In this document: in pieces, positions 19,028 through 28,266 of the stretch
Layout: the number at the start of each line of letters is the position of its first letter
Numbering within the stretch: the stretch's first letter is position 1
Assembly: GCA_016188575.1 (NCBI GenBank)
Contig: JACPHN010000118.1
Coordinates: 1 to 64,000, forward strand
Origin: Candidatus Schekmanbacteria bacterium
Lineage (GTDB): Bacteria > CSSED10-310 > JACPHN01
Length of the DNA: 64,000 bases
Direction: 5' to 3'
Translations under genes and position numbers: made by a program
Notes under the pieces: generated by a model
Seen by the model: the letters and a program-made list of their open reading frames with translations, nothing else
Databases searched by the model: none
What the model was told of the DNA's origin: nothing

Positions 19028-20503
19028 TCAGTACGAGTACCTCATGCCAACGTGGACATTGGTGTTGTTTTCGAGCTGTCCGAAAAAAGTGTGGTCGTGA
19101 GCGCCGGCGAAGACGTTGGCGCCGCCGGTCACTTGCACGTGATCCGTGATACGGTAGCTCGCTTCGGGACGCACGTAGCCGTCATCGTCGCTTGGCGAAT
19201 AGAACCCGAAGAGTGTCAAACGGAGGTTTTGACCGCGCAACAGCGCGGTCACACGCGTGGTCAGCACGTGCCGATCCGCGTCCATGCCCGGTTGACCCGG
19301 CGGCAAGGTCTCGCGGTACTGGTCGTGATTGCGCATGTGCTCCAGGTAGTACTGTACGCCGAGGGTGACGTTGCGGACGAGCTCCTGCTCGTACCCGCAC
19401 AGCACGCGTAGCTCGCCGTTGCGGACCGCAAAATCCGTGCCTGCGACATCGTCAGGCGAGGCGAAGTAGCCCAGCTCGGCGCTGGCGATCCCCCGTCCCA
19501 GCACGCCGCGCGCGCTCGCCCCATAAACCCGCAGCCGCGGATGCGTCGCATGCCCGGAGCCGGGGTCAAAACCCGCGGGGCTCTTCCAGTACCCGAGGTA
19601 GCCGTAGAGCGCCAGCTCATAGCCGGCCACGGTGCGATACAGGCGAGCAGCCGTCTCGGAGTCGCGGAACCAGCGATCGGGGACATCGGCCACAATGATG
19701 GCGTCCCGACCCGCCAGCCGCGCAAGCGCCGCGTCGTAGTAGGAGAGTCGCCTCCCGGTGATGCCGCGATCGGCATCGAACCGTGGGGTGTAGATCACGT
19801 CGAGATTCGCGGCGGGAGTAAATAGCGACAGCTTGGCCGCATCGGATGGCGCCTTGAGATATTCCACGTCGCGGCCGAGCAGGAAGGCGCGCCAGTCCTT
19901 GGGGAAAAGGTCGTTGACGAAAAGCAGGTCTCCGGTACCCCACGTCAGGATCTGCCGGCCCAGCTTCGCGTCGACCGGGCCCGCCGGTCGGGCAGCGACA
20001 AAGGCCTCGCGCAAGTCGAGCCAGCCGCTGCCTGCCTCGAGGTCCAGGTCGAGAGAATCTTCGAGGTGGTCATACAGCAGGTCCGCGGCCGCGCGCACCG
20101 TGACGGCAGACCCGCTCTTCTCGATAACACCGCGCGCCCGCGCCTCGGCAAGCGAAAGCCGCTTCTCGTACGGGTCGTCGTGGACGCGTGCTCCCATGCG
20201 AACCTCCAGGAAACCGGACAGGGCGACAGGCCATGCTGCCGCTTCTGCCGGCGCCTCCTCTGCCGTGTCTTCCGCGGCCCGCTCAGCGGTTCCGTCGAGG
20301 CCCGTGGGCAGGACGGGCTCGTCGCCGTCGCCAAGGCCAGCGGGCAACGCCGGCTCGTCCTGGTCAAGCAAACCCGGCGGCAACGGGGGCGCATCGCCTG
20401 CGCCGAAACCCGCCCGCGCCGCCGCCGACACCTCCCCGTACCCCACGAGCGACGTGGCCAGCAGCAGCAGCCACGCCGCGTGACCGAACGCCCGTAGGGT
20501 CAT
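19028..20503 (-). CDS. Outer-membrane beta-barrel protein (DUF1302-like)
   Basis: This 491-residue protein has a signal peptide, then three tandem short repeats of the type LPPGLLDQDEP / LPAGLGDGDEP / LPTGLDG, an acidic Ala/Glu linker, and a barrel-like C-terminus of alternating hydrophobic strands ending in aromatic MRYSY. The final aromatic residue and strand periodicity are typical of outer-membrane porins. It resembles DUF1302/alginate-export-like proteins that accompany RND exporters. It overlaps the LolA-like gene by four bases (ATGA) and is the last gene of the operon. Its likely role is the outer-membrane exit or receptor of the export system. Confidence 0.72.
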   Translation of the reverse strand: MTLRAFGHAAWLLLLATSLVGYGEVSAAARAGFGAGDAPPLPPGLLDQDEPALPAGLGDGDEPVLPTGLDGTAERAAEDTAEEAPAEAAAWPVALSGFLEVRMGARVHDDPYEKRLSLAEARARGVIEKSGSAVTVRAAADLLYDHLEDSLDLDLEAGSGWLDLREAFVAARPAGPVDAKLGRQILTWGTGDLLFVNDLFPKDWRAFLLGRDVEYLKAPSDAAKLSLFTPAANLDVIYTPRFDADRGITGRRLSYYDAALARLAGRDAIIVADVPDRWFRDSETAARLYRTVAGYELALYGYLGYWKSPAGFDPGSGHATHPRLRVYGASARGVLGRGIASAELGYFASPDDVAGTDFAVRNGELRVLCGYEQELVRNVTLGVQYYLEHMRNHDQYRETLPPGQPGMDADRHVLTTRVTALLRGQNLRLTLFGFYSPSDDDGYVRPEASYRITDHVQVTGGANVFAGAHDHTFFGQLENNTNVHVGMRYSY

Positions 20504-21321
20504 CTCAGCAGCTCCGCGGGGGGATTGCGCAGGTAGCGCTCAGTGAAAACATCTTCGCCAAGTCCGATGTCATACGCGACCTTGGCGTAGCGCAGCAAGG
20601 TCGACACCCCTGTTCGCAAGTCCTTCATGCGCGCCTGGGTCACGGTTTGATAACCCTGCACCCCTTCTACTTTCAGTGCTTCATATTGTCTGTATGCTTC
20701 TCCTCCACTGTCATAATACTCTGCCTTGACTGGCAGGAAAGAGCTTTTGTGCACCCACATCCGAAAGAAGGCGAATTCCACGCTGTGCGCGTCCTTTGGC
20801 GTGTTCTTCAATACGTAGTAGGTGTCTGTCGTCTTCTCGAGCTCGTGCGTATCAGCCGCGAGGTCACGACCGGAGACGTCCTCGTAAAAGAAGCTCGACC
20901 CCATGAAGCTAGTGCGCTTGTCACTCGCCGCGATCCGCTTGACCAGATCGAGGGCCGGCAGGAAGAGCCAGCGATCGTCTTCTCCACCGGGCTTTTTCCA
21001 GACCAGGAATGCCGTCTTGTTGACGTCGGCGGGGCGCGTGAAATAGACGTAGTAACTCTGCGGGCCACCGCTTGCGCCCGTGTTACGCCGGAGTATTGTA
21101 AACTGCCGCGACTGCTCGCGACCCTGAGCATCTGCAATCGTCATCGCCACCTGAGCGCGACCGTCTTTTCCCTGGTAGTATGCCATCTCGTTCGTCTTGG
21201 CGACGATCTCCTCAACGCTCAACTCCTGACCGGCGACCGTAGTTCCTGCGCCGCCAACAAGAATCGCGAGCATCGCCGCATGCGAAAACAAGAGAGACAA
21301 AGCTGCGACTGACGGTTTCAC
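20500..21321 (-). CDS. LolA-like outer-membrane lipoprotein-sorting family protein
   Basis: This 273-residue periplasmic protein has a signal peptide ending near VAGQ and a LolA/DUF4292-like fold: repeated beta strands, NKTAFLVWKKPGGEDDRWLF, LDLVKRI, and MGSSFFYEDVSGRD. Such proteins accompany MMPL/RND exporters and may chaperone a lipid between membranes. GTG at 21321 was chosen because GAGGG lies six bases upstream; the longer reading would begin inside the RND gene. It lies 16 bases after that gene and overlaps the barrel gene. Confidence 0.85.
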   Translation of the reverse strand: MKPSVAALSLLFSHAAMLAILVGGAGTTVAGQELSVEEIVAKTNEMAYYQGKDGRAQVAMTIADAQGREQSRQFTILRRNTGASGGPQSYYVYFTRPADVNKTAFLVWKKPGGEDDRWLFLPALDLVKRIAASDKRTSFMGSSFFYEDVSGRDLAADTHELEKTTDTYYVLKNTPKDAHSVEFAFFRMWVHKSSFLPVKAEYYDSGGEAYRQYEALKVEGVQGYQTVTQARMKDLRTGVSTLLRYAKVAYDIGLGEDVFTERYLRNPPAELLR

Positions 21322-21337
21322 AAGATCCCTCGACTTT

Positions 21338-24214
21338 CTACGTAGTGGGTAACACATTCCGGCTCGCACCGCGGCCGCTGATCACCACAACGAACAAGGT
21401 GATTGCTGGCAGCCCGATGGCACACATGATGGTGAGCTCCCGGACATCGAGACCCAGGAAGTGCGCACCGTTCAGGGCGATCACCCCGAGCACCGTGCCC
21501 GCCACCAGGAGTGCCGAAACCACGCGCGCCGCAAGGCCGCGAACCGCGCCGACCGGAAACAGCCAGGGCTCGAGCACCCCAATGAGCGCGGGCAGGAGCA
21601 GCAGCGTGGCGGCGCCGGCAGTAGCCAGAATCGCGGCGATGAACATGCCGACCGTCTGGTAGGGAACGAGCGGCGCGAGCAGCAGCGGCAGGAACCCGAC
21701 ACCGATCACGATGACGTTGCGCGCGATCGCCCGCGAAGGCTCGCCAAAGAGCGCGGCGGACACTTGCGGCCAGCTCCCATAGCGGCCATGCAGCTCACGG
21801 GTTCGCGCCAGGAAGTGAATCGCGTAATCGATAGCGAGCCCCAGGCTCAGCGAGGATAGCACCGCAATCGGCATGTCATACTCCTTGCCCAGCAGGCCGA
21901 TCGCGCCGTAGATCGTCGCGATCGATACCGAAAGCGGAACCATCGAAAGGATCCCCCAGAGCACTGAGCGGAACAGGCCCATCATCATCAACAGCACCAC
22001 GAGCGCGCTGCCGGCCAGCGACGAGAGCATGCCGTGAACCATGCGCTGCTGCCAGACGACGTTGATGTAGGTCAGTCCAAACCAGTGGTGCAGCAGCGGA
22101 ACCGGAGCGGGATGGCTCGCGATCCAGCGGTCGAGCGTCTCCACCACGCGAACCATGTCCTCGTTGTCACCGCTCTTGAGCTGCACCCAAACGCTGGCAG
22201 TACCATAGTCGGGCGTGACGAAGTGCCACAGGTCTTGCGCGCGATGACTGTTCTGGTAGGTGATCAGCGACTGCGCCACCGCGGCCGCCGAGTCGGGCAC
22301 ACGGAAGTCCTCGTCGCGCCCTTGCCGTAGCTCCCGATGCACGGTCTTGACGAGATCGACGAGCGAGCTGGTCTTGCCAACCACGGGTGAGAGCGCGAGC
22401 TGCTGCTGCAGCTCATCGATGTAGCGCAGCACCTCAGGTTGCTTCATCAGCTCGCTGCGCTCCCGCTCCTGATCGATCATCGCCAGGAGCTTCCCCCAGC
22501 CGACGCCTTCGCCGCCCGCCGCCGCGAACGATCGATCGTCCGCCCACGTTGCAAGCTGCGCAAGGACCGCCGCGTCACCGGCCCCGGCGCCTGCCGACCC
22601 AGCGCCGCCACGGATGCGAGCCGCCTCCTGGACGGCCTGCTCGAACACTCCGAGAACCGCGGGATCCTGGCCGGATAGCTCGCGCTGGCGAGCGCGGAGC
22701 CGCTGCTCCAGGCCTCCCGCGGGGGTCGCCGGTTCCAGCGCCAAGTATGCCATGTACGTGCCGCCGAGGTGCTCATTCAACACGTCGGCAGCGCGGCGAA
22801 TGGGGTGCGACGGCGTAAACCACTTCACGGGATTGTCGTTGATATGGATCTTTGAAATCCCGTATGCGGAGAGCACCCCGACGCCCAGAGTCAACGCCAG
22901 TATGGGCTTCGCGTGCGGCCCGACGAATCGACCCATGGCCGCCAGCAGACGTTCCATGAGCCCACCGCCAGCGATGTTGCCTGCCGCTCGTCGCGATCGC
23001 GCGCTCATCCCAAAGGTCGCGAGTTTCTTTTCGCGCAAGAACATGACGTATGCTGGAATGAACGTGATCGTCCAGATCCATGCCAGCATCACCCCAAGCG
23101 CCACGAACGCGCCGAAAACCTGGACCGGCGGTATGGGCGTCAGGGCCAACGAGGCAAAGCCGGCTGCAGTAGTGAGCGAAGTGAACAGCATCGCCGTCCC
23201 CAGGCCGTTCATGACCTTCAGAATCGTCGCGCGCCGGTCGCGCGTTTCCTGGTACCGATCGAAAAACTCGCTCAGGATATGCACGGAATCGAGCACCGCG
23301 ATCGGCATGATGAAAATGGGGATCATGGAGCTCATGATGTGCACGGTGTTGCCGGCAACGACCAGCAGTGACATCGTGGCGATGACGGTCACCATGGCCA
23401 GGATCATCGGGGAGAGCACCAGCGCGAGCTTGCGGAAGAACGCCAGCATCAGCACGAAGATGATGATCATGGCCAACGGCGCCGAAATCGCCATCTGTAT
23501 GAACATTTCGACGCCAAACGTGTCCTCGGCGACCGGCAGCCCGGTGATGAAGAACTGGTCATCACCCCCAAGCTCGGCGATTTTTGCGCGCAACGCCTCG
23601 GCAACCTGGTAGCTGACATCTTTGGAGGTCAATGGCACATAGAGCGCCAGCACCTTGCCATCATCGGAAAAGAGCGTTCCGCGGAGGAAGGGAACGCGCT
23701 CCGCACGCTGCCGAACGGCGGCCGCTTGCGCGTCGTCGGCTGGTGGGGCGGCCATCAGCCAGGAAAAGCTGACGGTCCCTTCCCCGGCCTGTTCGATGTG
23801 ATCGACGGTCGATGGCGCGAGCAGGTCGGCGGCCACGACCCCGTGCTGCCCGCCGTTGGCCCCGCTCAAGGCAGCACCATGCAGGGTCTTGGCAAACTCG
23901 GCAAGCTCGTAGGCCCGCCCGAGCGTCCCGGCGTTGAACACGCCCTGGGGGTGCACGTCGTTGAGGACCCCGACGACGAGCATGTCGTGCAGGGAGAGCG
24001 CGTTTTTCATGCGATCGTGAAGGACACGGGCGGCCTCATCAGCCGGCAACATGTTCTCCGGATCGGTGTCCACGGTGACCCCATGAAGATACGGGAAGCG
24101 CTCCGGCCAGACGCTGGGGAGCACCGCAAGCAGTGCCAGAAGGGCAGTCGAGACCACCATGACGGCGGTTACGAGTCGCGGGTGGTCAACCGAAAAGAGG
24201 ATGACGCGCTTCAT
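21338..24214 (-). CDS. RND superfamily exporter, MMPL type
   Basis: This 958-residue membrane protein has the usual layout: helix 1, a large periplasmic loop, five helices (around 240-400), a second helix at about 435, a second periplasmic loop, and five final helices. Visible helices include MIIIFVLMLAFF and VLLMMMGLFRSVLWGILSMV. Conserved SSD-like motifs such as DSVHILSEFFDRY and SLGLAIDYAIHFLARTRE mark the proton-relay helices of MMPL exporters. These move lipids, sterols or hydrophobic compounds across the inner membrane. It starts three bases after the DUF2892 stop, so expression is coupled. Confidence 0.93.
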   Translation of the reverse strand: MKRVILFSVDHPRLVTAVMVVSTALLALLAVLPSVWPERFPYLHGVTVDTDPENMLPADEAARVLHDRMKNALSLHDMLVVGVLNDVHPQGVFNAGTLGRAYELAEFAKTLHGAALSGANGGQHGVVAADLLAPSTVDHIEQAGEGTVSFSWLMAAPPADDAQAAAVRQRAERVPFLRGTLFSDDGKVLALYVPLTSKDVSYQVAEALRAKIAELGGDDQFFITGLPVAEDTFGVEMFIQMAISAPLAMIIIFVLMLAFFRKLALVLSPMILAMVTVIATMSLLVVAGNTVHIMSSMIPIFIMPIAVLDSVHILSEFFDRYQETRDRRATILKVMNGLGTAMLFTSLTTAAGFASLALTPIPPVQVFGAFVALGVMLAWIWTITFIPAYVMFLREKKLATFGMSARSRRAAGNIAGGGLMERLLAAMGRFVGPHAKPILALTLGVGVLSAYGISKIHINDNPVKWFTPSHPIRRAADVLNEHLGGTYMAYLALEPATPAGGLEQRLRARQRELSGQDPAVLGVFEQAVQEAARIRGGAGSAGAGAGDAAVLAQLATWADDRSFAAAGGEGVGWGKLLAMIDQERERSELMKQPEVLRYIDELQQQLALSPVVGKTSSLVDLVKTVHRELRQGRDEDFRVPDSAAAVAQSLITYQNSHRAQDLWHFVTPDYGTASVWVQLKSGDNEDMVRVVETLDRWIASHPAPVPLLHHWFGLTYINVVWQQRMVHGMLSSLAGSALVVLLMMMGLFRSVLWGILSMVPLSVSIATIYGAIGLLGKEYDMPIAVLSSLSLGLAIDYAIHFLARTRELHGRYGSWPQVSAALFGEPSRAIARNVIVIGVGFLPLLLAPLVPYQTVGMFIAAILATAGAATLLLLPALIGVLEPWLFPVGAVRGLAARVVSALLVAGTVLGVIALNGAHFLGLDVRELTIMCAIGLPAITLFVVVISGRGASRNVLPTT

Positions 24215-24217
24215 GGA

Positions 24218-24463
24218 TCAGCGCTCCGCGGCGGAGGCGGTCGGTCCCCGCAAGCCGCCACATGCCGTCGCGGCGCTGTCGCTCAGCCCGGCATAGCGCA
24301 ACAGCATCATCATGGGACACCAGTCGGTGAAGGCGGACTGCAGCAGGTTCAGCCCCACGAATCCGGTAAACAGCAGCCAGTAGGGCGTGTGAAAAACGGC
24401 CAGAGCGACCGAAAGCAGGACGAAGAAACCGGCGATACCTCGCAGAGCGCGTTCGATACTCAT
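24218..24463 (-). CDS. DUF2892 membrane protein (YgaP transmembrane module)
   Basis: This 81-residue protein consists of two transmembrane helices around LLSVALAVFHTPYWLLFTG, followed by a cysteine loop FTDWCPMMMLLRY. The FxDWCP motif is typical of DUF2892 (YgaP_TM). In E. coli YgaP this module is fused to a rhodanese domain. Here the rhodanese is in the upstream ArsR gene, so the two parts are split differently. It begins 120 bases after that gene's stop and precedes the RND gene by three bases. Confidence 0.9.
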   Translation of the reverse strand: MSIERALRGIAGFFVLLSVALAVFHTPYWLLFTGFVGLNLLQSAFTDWCPMMMLLRYAGLSDSAATACGGLRGPTASAAER

Positions 24464-24583
24464 CGATGTTCTCCAAGCGGGAAGTGAAGGTTGAATCTCA
24501 CGACACGGCGTCGCGAAATCGGTGCCGGCGGGGGCACGGCGGGAGCGGTGAAGCGTGGCGAAGAGTGGCAGGGGGCACGCTGA

Positions 24584-25261
24584 TCATTCGGATCCTCCGA
24601 CGGCTACGGACAAGCCGCGGGAGCGCCAATCGTGGATCGAGCTGTCGCAGCGGCGCGCGCGGAATCCTCTGGCGCGCAGCGCTTCGACGGCCTGCACCGC
24701 CATGACACAGTACGGCCCACGGCAGTAGGCGACGATCTCGCGGTCCTTTGGCAGCTCGGCCAGACGTCGGTCAAGCTCGGCCAGGGGAACGGAAAGCGCT
24801 CCGGGTATATGTCCGGCGGCAAACTCGGCAGTGGGGCGCACATCGATGACACTCACTTCGCCGCGGTGCGCGCGGGTGCAAAGCGTGTCCAGGTCAACGG
24901 GCTCCATGTCGGATCGATCCGCAAAGAAGTCGCGAACGATGGCGTCGAGCTCGGTAAGACGACGTTCCGCGAGCCGGCGGAGCAGTCCGAGCAGGTCGAC
25001 GACCAGCGGGTCGGCGAGGCTGTACGTGACGTGGAGTCCGGCCTTTTCGGTCTGGAGCAGGCGCGCCGCCCGGAGAATCTGCAGGTGCTGGGAGGCGTTG
25101 GCCACGGAGAGGCCGATTTCGGCGGCCAGCGTCTCCACAGTGCGGGGTCCTTGTGAGAGGACTTCGAGGAGGCGAAGGCGCTGAGGGCTGGCGACGGCTT
25201 TGCCGAGTCTGGCGATCTGGTCGAAGACGGCGATGCTGAACTGGCGTGGGGAGGCGGACAT
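24584..25261 (-). CDS. ArsR-family regulator fused to rhodanese domain
   Basis: This 225-residue protein has an ArsR winged helix (residues about 1-110, with EIGLSVANASQHLQIL as the recognition helix) and a C-terminal rhodanese domain (about 125-215). The rhodanese active site reads YCRGPYC with the catalytic cysteine. The winged-helix part has no cysteine, so any thiol or sulfur sensing must come from the rhodanese part. Such fusions are known as sulfur- or metal-responsive repressors. It heads an operon with DUF2892, RND, LolA-like and barrel genes. A palindrome lies 14 bases upstream, in the right place for autoregulation. Confidence 0.92.
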   Translation of the reverse strand: MSASPRQFSIAVFDQIARLGKAVASPQRLRLLEVLSQGPRTVETLAAEIGLSVANASQHLQILRAARLLQTEKAGLHVTYSLADPLVVDLLGLLRRLAERRLTELDAIVRDFFADRSDMEPVDLDTLCTRAHRGEVSVIDVRPTAEFAAGHIPGALSVPLAELDRRLAELPKDREIVAYCRGPYCVMAVQAVEALRARGFRARRCDSSIHDWRSRGLSVAVGGSE

Positions 25262-25275
25262 GGCGCGCGGGCTCC

Positions 25276-25301
25276 ATTATTCTATTGAATACTTGAATAA
25301 T
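25276..25301. promoter_or_regulatory. ArsR-type operator palindrome
   Basis: Seven-base perfect arms ATTATTC (25276-25282) and GAATAAT (25295-25301) flank a 12-base centre that contains another GAATAC. It is AT-rich in a GC-rich context and lies 14 bases before the start of the arsR-rhodanese gene. It also lies between the divergent arsR and epimerase genes, so it could control both. ArsR proteins bind such ATTC/GAAT palindromes. Confidence 0.75.
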
Positions 25302-25413
25302 ACACGCCATGCGCTTGCCCGTCAAGCCCCATTGCCGCCTCGGCGCCGGACGCCTACACTCAGTCTTGGTTGTCCCCCCTCACCCGCAGCGAACACCTCG
25401 GGAGCGCCCTACG

Positions 25414-26418
25414 ATGCGAGTACTGGTTACCGGAGCGACAGGCTTCATTGGCGGCAACGTGGTTCGGGCGGTATTGGCCGCCGGTCACCAGGTGCGCGCG
25501 ATGATGCGCGTCGGATCGCGGCACGCTGGCATCGCCGACTTGCTCGCGGCGCCACCGCCCGGTTTCGAAACCGTCCTGGCAGACCTCAAGCGGCCGGAAA
25601 CTTTGCCCGCCGCCGCAGCAGGGTGTGAGGCCATGGTGCACTGCGCTGGCTACTACCCCACGGTGAGCCTGCACTTCGCGGCCGAAGTGGAGCGCGCCGC
25701 ACGACAGATGTCGGCCGTCCTGAGCGCCGCGCGTCACGCCGGGGTGCGGCGCTTCGTCTACACCAGCTCGCTCTCGACCATCGCCCGGGCGGCGGCGGGG
25801 AGACTCGCCAGCGAGAGCGATCAGTACCGCGAGGGGGCGGTCTGGGATCCGTACTACGATGGGAAGCTGCGGATGGAAGAGCAGTGCCGGCGGGCGAGCG
25901 GCCCCGATTTTCAGACGGTGACGCTCTTGCCGACCCTCTGCGTCGGCCCCGGCGACGCCAACCGCACGACGTTCAAACCGTTCCAAGTCACGGCAGCGTT
26001 CCCGGTCGTCGGGTATTTTTCCGGGCGCGCGAACTTTGTCGACGTGCGCATCGTCGCGGCGGCTCACGCCGCAGCGCTCACCCGCGGCGCGCCGGGCGAG
26101 CGTTACGTGGTGAGCGGTGCCAACGTGACGTTCGCGGACTATCTGCGCCGCGTCGCCCGCGTGTTGGGAAAGCGCCGCCTGCTGATCCCGATTCCGGTCA
26201 GCGCCGCCTGGGTCGCGTCCTGGGTCAGCGAGCTTGCGGCTGTCTACGTCACCGGGCGCCCGCCGCTTCTACCCATCGAGAATGTGAACATGGCGCTGCA
26301 TGGACAGCACTTCGATGGCGACCGAGCGCGCCGAGAGCTAGGTATTGCCGCGACGGATCTCGACCGGGCGATCGCCGACGCGGCTGCCTGGTACCGCCAG
26401 GTCGGCTACCTGCGCTAA
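25414..26418 (+). CDS. NAD-dependent epimerase/dehydratase, HpnA-like
   Basis: This 334-residue short-chain dehydrogenase of the extended type begins with the nucleotide-binding motif VTGATGFIGGNVV (GxxGxxG). It contains the catalytic YDGKLRMEE pattern (YxxxK equivalent), TSSLSTIA, and LPTLCVGPGDANRT. This set matches HpnA-type (hopanoid-associated) sugar epimerases and dihydroflavonol-reductase-like enzymes. It probably modifies a nucleotide sugar or steroid-like substrate. It diverges from the arsR operon and shares its operator region. ATG at 25414 has GGGAG upstream; the longer frame starts inside that operator region. Confidence 0.85.
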   Translation: MRVLVTGATGFIGGNVVRAVLAAGHQVRAMMRVGSRHAGIADLLAAPPPGFETVLADLKRPETLPAAAAGCEAMVHCAGYYPTVSLHFAAEVERAARQMSAVLSAARHAGVRRFVYTSSLSTIARAAAGRLASESDQYREGAVWDPYYDGKLRMEEQCRRASGPDFQTVTLLPTLCVGPGDANRTTFKPFQVTAAFPVVGYFSGRANFVDVRIVAAAHAAALTRGAPGERYVVSGANVTFADYLRRVARVLGKRRLLIPIPVSAAWVASWVSELAAVYVTGRPPLLPIENVNMALHGQHFDGDRARRELGIAATDLDRAIADAAAWYRQVGYLR

Positions 26419-26498
26419 GGACCCGTAACGCAATACCTGTTGCATTCGGCCGGCTGCGAAGGCCGCGGTGCTTGACACCGTTATTTCGCTCCGGGTCC
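26419..26498 (+). repeat. 80-bp inverted-end repeat, copy A
   Basis: The element begins GGACCCGTAACGCAATA and ends TATTTCGCTCCGGGTCC. Its end sequences are imperfect inverted repeats of each other. The second copy, in opposite orientation, lies at 44394-44473, is also exactly 80 bases, and is about 63 of 80 positions identical by my alignment. This copy starts directly after the epimerase stop codon and ends on the last base of the YceI stop codon. It therefore fills the gap between two convergent genes. Likely roles are a MITE-like element or a bidirectional terminator. Confidence 0.85.
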
Positions 26499-27058
26499 TA
26501 GTTGGAGCTGGTCTCCTCCCAGACCGCCTCGATGGTGAGCGCGACTTCGTCCTTGACCGCAACTCCGAGCAGCGACGGTCGCTCGACCTCGAAATCGCTG
26601 AGCTTGAGTGGAATCTCTCCGGTGACCGTCACCGCATCGGGCGTGCGGCTGACGACCGCGAGCGCGACCGCCCCATACGTCCTGGACCGACCCGCAAACG
26701 CAATCTCCAGCGATACCGTTAGTGGGCCTTCTTCGGGAGCGGATGCGAACCGCGCCTTCACGTCGATGAGCGGAAAGCTGGCGGCTCTGGTAATCTCCTG
26801 CATGTGCAAGTCGCGGTTCGAATCGCCCGATTCGAAGGTCTTTACGGGGACCGCAATGCGAAAGGCGCACCCCGGCCCGACGCCGCAGCTACCCTTGCCT
26901 TTCGCCGCCACGCTCACGCCTTCACTTTTGTGCAAGAGGTGGTCCACATGGTAGGCGATCTTGGACTGTTTGAGCGTCCACGTCGTGGCGGCGGCGCCTG
27001 GCGCCGATGCGAACAGGGCAGTCGAGATGAGTAACAGCGTTGTTGCGAAAACGCGCAT
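26498..27058 (-). CDS. YceI-family periplasmic protein
   Basis: This 186-residue protein has a signal peptide and a lipocalin-like beta-barrel of the YceI family (TWTLKQSKIAYHVDHLLHK, then EITRAASFPLIDVKARF and the closing VALTIEAVW). YceI proteins bind polyisoprenoid or quinone-like lipids in the periplasm. In E. coli yceI is paired with yceJ, a b-type cytochrome. The upstream membrane gene here has an analogous layout. ATG at 27058 was chosen; an upstream TTG at 27070 adds four residues and follows directly on the stop of the membrane gene. Confidence 0.9.
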   Translation of the reverse strand: MRVFATTLLLISTALFASAPGAAATTWTLKQSKIAYHVDHLLHKSEGVSVAAKGKGSCGVGPGCAFRIAVPVKTFESGDSNRDLHMQEITRAASFPLIDVKARFASAPEEGPLTVSLEIAFAGRSRTYGAVALAVVSRTPDAVTVTGEIPLKLSDFEVERPSLLGVAVKDEVALTIEAVWEETSSN

Positions 27059-27070
27059 GGCCTTGTCCAA

Positions 27071-27892
27071 TCAGAAGTCGAAGACGATGACGAGCATTGC
27101 ACCGGTGAACGTCACCGCTGCCGTGGTCGCTGCGGCGCTGTGATACTTTGCGATGCCATGGGCTCTTTCGCCCTTGTCAGCCTGCTGCTTGGCGAGGTAG
27201 CCGAGCACAGGCGCGGCGATCATCGCGGGGAGGTGAACATAGGACAGAATCTTGTGCGTCCTGGTCAATCCTTTCTCCTTGACCCCCGCGACGGACGGCG
27301 CCCGGTATGCGAAGTAGGCCGTCGCGCCATAGAGCGCGGCGGCAGTCGTGCCGACGATCGTATGCAGATTGCGATCCGCGCGGCTGCCCTCGCCGGCCTT
27401 CTCGCCGAGCGCCAGCGCGCCGAGCATCGGCGCCAGTGTGACCAGGCCGAGGATCTGATGGGTCTTGAGCATTCGCGACCGCTTGTTCAGCCGTTGCTGC
27501 TGTTTCTCGTCCCCGCGCGCTTCGACCTCCTCGAATCCGAGCTCCTCCAGGCTCGGTTCCGTGGCATCGGGCGCCTGCGCCTCGGGTTCTTTCCCCGGCT
27601 CCGGGGGCGCGACCTGGGCAATCGCGATACCGTGGTCGCCCGCGGGACTGAGCTCCATCCAGCCCCTGGGTCGTGGGGATGCTGCGGACACGCGGGGGAG
27701 CCGAAGGGCCACAAGGAGCGGTCCTGGAGAACCCGAGGCGGAAAAGTAACCCGCGACGGTACTGGGCCGCTCGCCTCCGCGAAGCAGCCGCAGCCCGGCG
27801 AGGGGTCCGGTGGTGCCCTCCGCGACGCCACCTTGAGCAATCCAGGCGATGGCGAATGCCGTCACCAGGCAGGCAGACCTATACGTGATCAT
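27071..27892 (-). CDS. Four-helix membrane protein with paired histidines, b561-like
   Basis: This 273-residue protein has a signal-like N-terminus, an Ala/Pro-rich stretch, an acidic linker, and a C-terminal region with four transmembrane helices. Each helix region carries a histidine: KTHQILGL, NLHTIVGT, THKILSYVH and AKYHSAA. This spacing is consistent with a di-heme b-type cytochrome. The downstream YceI gene is the usual partner of the cytochrome b561-like YceJ. Function is therefore inferred as a quinol- or lipid-linked electron carrier; the sequence itself is not clearly in the b561 family. GGAGG before ATG at 27892 decides the start. Confidence 0.6.
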   Translation of the reverse strand: MITYRSACLVTAFAIAWIAQGGVAEGTTGPLAGLRLLRGGERPSTVAGYFSASGSPGPLLVALRLPRVSAASPRPRGWMELSPAGDHGIAIAQVAPPEPGKEPEAQAPDATEPSLEELGFEEVEARGDEKQQQRLNKRSRMLKTHQILGLVTLAPMLGALALGEKAGEGSRADRNLHTIVGTTAAALYGATAYFAYRAPSVAGVKEKGLTRTHKILSYVHLPAMIAAPVLGYLAKQQADKGERAHGIAKYHSAAATTAAVTFTGAMLVIVFDF

Positions 27893-28266
27893 TGTGACCT
27901 CCGTCTCATGGAACATGGTGCCGGCGTAAACTCGCGCACGGCCGCCCTCTCGATCTTCGCGACGATTGTGTACCAGCGACTCATTAACCGCGGATTAACC
28001 CGGCGCCTTGGCCGCGCGCAGGACAAATTGCACGTCGACGAGTTTCGCGATCAGGCTCTTGACAAGGTTGGCCAAACGCGACAATAATACCGCCACCCGC
28101 GAAGTGCGCTCGTTGCCACGGACTGTGCTGACCCAGCGGAGCGTCGCCGTACTGGATACCATGGTGGCGCGTGCCCGAGTCGCAACTGAGGATTGCGGAT
28201 AGACGTTTATCCGCTTGAGACAGTGGCTGCCGTGCGGGAATCGGAGCCAGGGACAATTCGACAAGG
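27893..28266. other. Intergenic region between divergent genes
   Basis: This 374-base region carries a good promoter for the small secreted gene (see 28059-28088) and leaves a leader of about 170 bases. I see no gene; the longest open frames lack ribosome-binding sites. Confidence 0.55.
28059..28088 (+). promoter_or_regulatory. Sigma-70-type promoter for small secreted protein gene
   Basis: A perfect -35 box TTGACA (28059-28064) is followed after 18 bases by AATAAT (28083-28088). The start codon is about 180 bases downstream. The long leader may form structure. Confidence 0.6.

Follow-up and report, generated by a model that had tools for sequence, protein, structure and literature searches.

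The 64,000-nucleotide stretch analysed here (the window; positions 1–64,000 of contig JACPHN010000118.1, assembly GCA_016188575.1, Candidatus Schekmanbacteria bacterium) contains at 19,028–25,301 a five-gene locus joining a fused ArsR-rhodanese regulator to an envelope export cassette. All five open reading frames (ORFs) in this interval of the window's ORF list lie on the minus strand, the regulator being followed by a DUF2892 membrane protein, an MMPL-family RND transporter, a LolA-like carrier and an outer-membrane barrel (Table 1). An earlier note, made from the sequence alone, had named these families at this place, and ORF coordinates and Pfam agree with it, the barrel being recognised by fold. 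The genes likely form a single transcription unit, because the last three overlap by 32 and 4 bp and DUF2892 ends 3 bp before MMPL; the gap between the regulator and DUF2892 is 120 bp. We propose, with slightly better than even confidence, that a sulfane-sulfur-responsive repressor controls export of a hydrophobic compound driven by the proton motive force.

Table 1. Features of the regulator-exporter locus and its divergent neighbour, in window coordinates.
Feature	Position	Strand	Basis
ArsR winged-helix (residues ~12–105) and rhodanese (~114–222) fusion; probable repressor/sensor	24584..25261	-	Pfam, 64-member alignment
CRGPYC active-site loop codons (C180, C185)	24707..24724	-	Family alignment
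Operator-type palindrome ATTATTC-N12-GAATAAT	25276..25301	.	Exact match; family motif
Sigma-70-like promoter TTGACG-17-TATTAT, -10 overlapping the palindrome	25297..25325	-	Promoter scan
DUF2892/YgaP-like_TM small membrane protein, family-invariant Cys49 (WCPM)	24218..24463	-	Pfam, alignment
MMPL/HAE3-type RND transporter, 958 aa, MmpL4/5/3-NPC1-HpnN fold	21338..24214	-	Pfam, structure model
LolA-like periplasmic carrier (PF17131)	20500..21369	-	Pfam
Outer-membrane beta-barrel, ~18 strands, AlgE/Occ-class fold	19028..20503	-	AlphaFold model
Divergent SDR/epimerase, HpnA-like but below the HpnA cut-off	25414..26418	+	Family search

An operator-type palindrome lies over the operon's predicted promoter. 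The ATTC/GAAT palindrome that the earlier note saw before the first gene is exact, and only 0.2 such sites would be expected in the whole window even at three mismatches. Its arms are spaced by N12, with a nested N4 variant. Within it, ATTCAAGTATTCAATAGAAT on the minus (coding) strand agrees with ATTCAA-N8-TTGAAT at 11/12 positions. The sole promoter-like site in the region matches 10 of 12 promoter positions (0.1 expected). Its -10 overlaps the palindrome, which would be the usual position for a repressor site.

The same motif recurs throughout the regulator's family. At least 10/12 positions of ATTCAA-N8-TTGAAT are found upstream of 54 of 64 ArsR-rhodanese genes from many phyla, compared with 1.25% of shuffled upstream regions; the 54/64 figure is optimistic since the template was taken from the same 64 genes, and the gap is still large. 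Because of this recurrence, the window palindrome is best read as the operator type of the ArsR-rhodanese family and not as something special to the cassette. The low expected count together with the recurrence rules out a chance palindrome.

ArsR-rhodanese fusions constitute a widespread family of their own. The window regulator carries HTH_5 (E 7e-11) followed by Rhodanese (E 7e-15) in one protein, with the C-R-G-x-x-C loop that completes our definition of the fusion family. Such fusions occupy 55 loci in our species-genome collection (the last few being partial matches) and 135 plasmid records, and members from many phyla are up to 60% identical to the window protein. They are annotated as "metalloregulator ArsR/SmtB family transcription factor" and share with the window regulator the order of domains, the CRGxxC loop and the type of operator; most head operons of MFS, SQR-like (sulfide:quinone reductase) or PDO-like (persulfide dioxygenase) genes, whereas the window member's target is the MMPL cassette. 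We found no experimentally studied ArsR-rhodanese regulator in the open-access papers searched.

Cysteine conservation places any sulfur chemistry of this regulator in the rhodanese. The window protein has cysteines at C128, C180, C185 and C205 and none before residue 128, so the winged helix has none, as the earlier note had observed. In the 64-member alignment C180 is invariant (64/64), C185 is present in 63/64, and no winged-helix cysteine is conserved. SqrR-group persulfide sensors, by contrast, need two conserved ArsR-domain cysteines, Cys50 and Cys116 in sHdrR, according to one survey (PMC12423496). Since these are absent here, any sulfane-sulfur sensing by the window regulator would have to run through the rhodanese. 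That would be a persulfide-switch design other than that of SqrR, in which a fused rhodanese takes up sulfur in place of a tetrasulfide within the winged helix.

The locus shares several parts with E. coli YgaV-YgaP and with SqrR/BigR, namely an ArsR-type regulator, rhodanese and DUF2892, ATTC/GAAT operator arms and a genomic link to sulfide metabolism. The earlier description of a re-partitioned YgaVP nevertheless holds only as an analogy. In the window the rhodanese is fused to the regulator, the winged-helix cysteine pair is missing, and an RND/LolA/barrel export route is attached. The regulator scores 32.7 bits on the NCBIfam BigR model against a cut-off of 155, and its operator has N12 between the arms where the published SqrR/YgaV site, ATTC-N8-GAAT, has N8 (PMC9774250). 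We therefore reject membership of the BigR/SqrR/YgaV group. Among solved structures, the window's rhodanese domain resembles rhodaneses linked to CoA-disulfide reductases and dioxygenases.

The genes adjoining ArsR-rhodanese regulators in other operons support sulfane-sulfur sensing through the rhodanese. These regulators head SQR-III-like operons, some with DsrE, in four genomes (G187, G201, G195 and G357), operons of a PDO-like MBL metallohydrolase and an MFS transporter in two (G080 and G412), and adjoin thioredoxin in another (G162). The window genome's own paralogue (G000:C182) adjoins an SQR-III-like flavoprotein. Curated SQR-III and Blh models matched below their cut-offs, and such names denote best similarity. 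This paralogue (L021:4149-5944) is 54% identical to the window regulator and has a CRGPYG loop in which the second cysteine is lost; the flavoprotein downstream of it looks shortened, at 251 aa.

The export core is widespread and has repeatedly acquired thiol-type sensors. The loci compared come mostly from draft assemblies, with genes called by simple ORF rules, and the trees are quick ones. Some 40 bacterial families have a cassette of RND/MMPL transporter, LolA-like carrier and 18-strand barrel; homologues of the window MMPL occur in 29 of 290 diverse genomes and in 14 of 44 genomes of one phylum, and around them the three genes are nearly always intact. DUF2892 belongs to the cassette as well, in keeping with the earlier note. 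Among 41 cassette genomes, 19 of the 28 copies above the cut-off lie within a few kb of it, against about 0.1 expected from genome sizes, and the window genome's sole copy is the cassette one. An ArsR gene heads about half of the cassettes; the 132 kb lying upstream of MMPL gave 22 ArsR matches and the remaining 78 kb of flank gave none. On the tree, ArsR and DUF2892 are each gained or lost about ten times. That one export core has recruited different thiol-type sensors again and again is our chief reason for regarding the tie between regulator and exporter as functional.

Cassettes headed by the fused regulator occur in two other genomes. The five-gene order, which the earlier note had proposed to look for elsewhere, is the same in G039 as in the window; G423 has DUF2892 and MMPL swapped, and the core is conserved across distant lineages. 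In G423, ATTCAACTATTCAATTGAAT follows TTGACA-17-TACTAT immediately, with an overlap at the -10 like that of the window, while the upstream site of G039 is weaker, at 9/12 of ATTCAA-N8-TTGAAT. MMPL trees place the window in one supported group and G039 and G423 in another, where G423 pairs with G213, whose cassette regulator is an ArsR-methyltransferase; the regulators of the window and G039 do not pair as sisters in their own tree. These placements argue against a single origin and suggest that the fused regulator was recruited at least twice. A common regulator and a common exporter might also simply have come together by chance, as the wide distribution of ArsR-rhodanese genes, mostly located elsewhere, might suggest. 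Such chance juxtaposition is highly improbable: three genomes, each from a different family, have all five parts, two of them with a matching operator, and DUF2892 and ArsR show strong positional enrichment.

Individual cassettes differ in detail. The MMPL gene of G039 is split into two overlapping frames (L022:1152-3463), a frameshift or an assembly error. Elsewhere an ArsR with a fused SAM-methyltransferase-like domain heads the cassette (L132:7652-8602), ArsR and methyltransferase stand upstream as separate genes (L137), or MMPL is preceded by two tandem ArsR-DUF302 pairs, in one of which the ArsR looks degenerate (L117:4418-5729). A search of plasmids with MMPL matched only Ilyobacter polytropus (Fusobacteriota), where plasmid pILYOP01 carries the order LolA-barrel-MMPL next to selD-yedF; this carrier has no window-type regulator. 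On the plasmid, selD, yedF and DUF3343 stand upstream of the cassette (L154:2396-9478), and selenium is possibly a further link.

Like the regulator, the cassette is repeatedly tied to sulfane-sulfur genes in other genomes, in agreement with the sulfur link first drawn from the window. Thioredoxin genes are found in the cassettes of G025, G172, G303 and G304, in the last beside a CoA-disulfide-reductase-rhodanese; G040 has a rhodanese with a Blh-like dioxygenase domain, G177 an SQR-III-like gene, and G094, G305 and G303 have DUF302. Unfused cassette ArsRs carry cysteine pairs in at least three arrangements. ATTC/GAAT is not their general operator; most have other AT-rich palindromes, and only G177 and G344 carry it. 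The window's DUF2892 protein (PF11127, E 4e-14, 53.1 bits against a gathering threshold of 25.3) has one cysteine that is invariant in 16/16 aligned copies, which is likely general to its family. Of 33 MMPLs, 11–12 have a CxCxxC-like cluster on an added pair of C-terminal membrane helices; the window MMPL does not have this cluster. Such tails belong to the MMPLs of L117, L118, L155-L159, L163, L165 and L166, and the window protein keeps the added helices without their cysteines.

The DUF2892 cysteine, ArsR cysteine pairs and MMPL tail clusters would fit persulfide or redox sensing but soft metals too. A thiophilic metal(loid) such as As, Sb or Hg, or an organometal such as organotin, could instead be the signal, with the cassette exporting a hydrophobic conjugate of it and the rhodanese and cysteine clusters handling or sensing the toxicant. 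The several kinds of cysteine pair in unfused cassette ArsRs are known from metal sensors also, the MMPL tail cluster points the same way, and tributyltin derepresses E. coli ygaVP (PMC9774250). A minority of ArsR-rhodanese genes, moreover, lie by an arsenite methyltransferase and an MIP channel/aquaporin (G418, and by similarity G086), a context that would suit a metalloid signal. Yet the window regulator and pump have no such clusters, genes for SQR-like, DsrE, PDO-like and rhodanese proteins keep recurring nearby, and the annotated cassettes showed no arsenical transporter or reductase. We consider this explanation rather unlikely. The arsenite-methyltransferase-like loci are L190:5067-9148, assigned by family search, and L146:5874-8821, assigned by look; DsrE- and rhodanese-like genes also lie near the former.

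The remaining components predict a trans-envelope route for hydrophobic molecules. The transporter matches MMPL with E 7e-25 (88 against 20.5 bits), and its model (pLDDT 87) resembles mycobacterial MmpL4/5 (TMt 0.76), MmpL3, NPC1-type proteins and HpnN, with conserved charged transmembrane residues D796, H800 and H312. Within the NCBIfam library HAE3 (TIGR00921) gives the top score, 164 bits against a cut-off of 352, and the protein lies below the curated cut-offs for HAE3, ActII and HpnN (TIGR03480; 48.6 against 751.85 bits). It shares with HAE3/MMPL transporters that have a LolA_like partner the RND fold, the charged residues and the adjoining LolA-like gene, but it misses the HpnN and HAE3 cut-offs and comes with DUF2892, an 18-strand barrel and thiol-linked regulators. 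The carrier matches LolA_like strongly (E 9e-57, 192 bits against a gathering threshold of 30; solved homologues 4z48, 9tp6 and 3bk5). Pfam gives the barrel gene only a sub-threshold DUF1302 match, and it is the AlphaFold model (mean pLDDT 84), an outer-membrane barrel of the AlgE/OprD channel class, that makes the earlier label right. One row, from a plasmid record, was left out of the structure predictions. AlgE is the best structural match, tied with Occ/OprD channels (Z 21.8, VIA-align). The 18-strand fold is alike, but identity is about 12% and the conserved cassette has no alginate genes. The five genes include no membrane-fusion protein or TolC-type factor, and we reject a tripartite AcrAB-TolC-type pump.

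These resemblances also suit an envelope-lipid route, hopanoid-like or other, in which reactive sulfur would be a mere proxy for a redox or anaerobic state and the cargo chemically unrelated to sulfur. The earlier note came near this view. Besides the likeness of the MMPL model to the MmpL3/4/5, HpnN and NPC1 lipid transporters and the presence of a LolA_like carrier, it draws on the HpnA-like SDR adjoining the operon and on the constancy of the MMPL-LolA-barrel core while head regulators and extra genes vary. Against it, the MMPL falls far under the HpnN cut-off and the SDR under the HpnA cut-off, and the core repeatedly acquires sulfur or thiol genes. We regard the lipid route as unlikely, if credible. 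A hopanoid HpnN system proper is rejected on the MMPL score, despite the HpnA-like neighbour.

Under the sulfane-sulfur model, a dimeric ArsR-type repressor would bind the palindrome over the -10 of its own promoter and keep the operon off. When sulfane sulfur (persulfide or polysulfide) rises, C180 would take sulfur, probably relayed to C185, and the repressor would be released. The derepressed operon would then make DUF2892, a putative membrane persulfide acceptor or helper, together with three export components: an RND pump of MmpL type driven by protons, a LolA-like carrier in the periplasm and an outer-membrane channel resembling AlgE. Judging from families and folds, pump, carrier and channel would move a hydrophobic or amphiphilic compound from the inner membrane across the envelope. 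Candidate cargoes are a hydrophobic waste product that contains sulfur, or a lipid that is damaged or has a protective role, and the cell may use the operon to answer sulfur stress by exporting such a molecule.

Several observations weigh against this model, among them the arsenite methyltransferase context described above. The regulator is not specific to the MMPL cassette: most ArsR-rhodanese genes lie by other genes, MFS transporters being the commonest neighbours. Many cassettes have no recognisable sulfur gene. The alignments reveal no conserved cysteine in the window's MMPL core, LolA-like carrier or barrel, so the pump itself gives no sign of a sulfur cargo. A broader proposal would make MMPL-LolA-barrel-DUF2892 a dedicated and widespread trans-envelope disposal route for hydrophobic sulfur (organic polysulfanes, zero-valent sulfur), served by often-swapped thiol or persulfide sensors; in the fused repressor the sensor would be the sulfurtransferase loop, not the winged helix. 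We think this quite doubtful.

To our knowledge, how bacteria carry sulfur across the envelope, whether zero-valent or bound in organic molecules, or move lipids damaged by sulfur across it, is largely an open question. A conserved cassette in which an MmpL-type pump, a carrier and an outer-membrane channel would answer to sulfane-sulfur or thiol sensing offers concrete candidate genes for that movement. The general idea is not new, because sulfane-sulfur-responsive ArsR regulators adjoining RND pumps were already reported in 2025 (PMC12423496). That survey required two SqrR-type cysteines, which the window regulator does not have, and an MMPL-DUF2892-LolA-barrel cassette is absent from the text consulted. 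We found no account of the cassette in the open-access papers searched, and it appears to be undescribed so far.

The genes flanking the operon lie outside the cassette. The divergent SDR is not a member of the conserved cassette; it has a 152-bp promoter region in common with the operon and may be co-regulated with it. Past the SDR, a separate minus-strand pair at 26498-27916 encodes two proteins, one YceI-like and the other a membrane protein of 281 aa without a recognised family.

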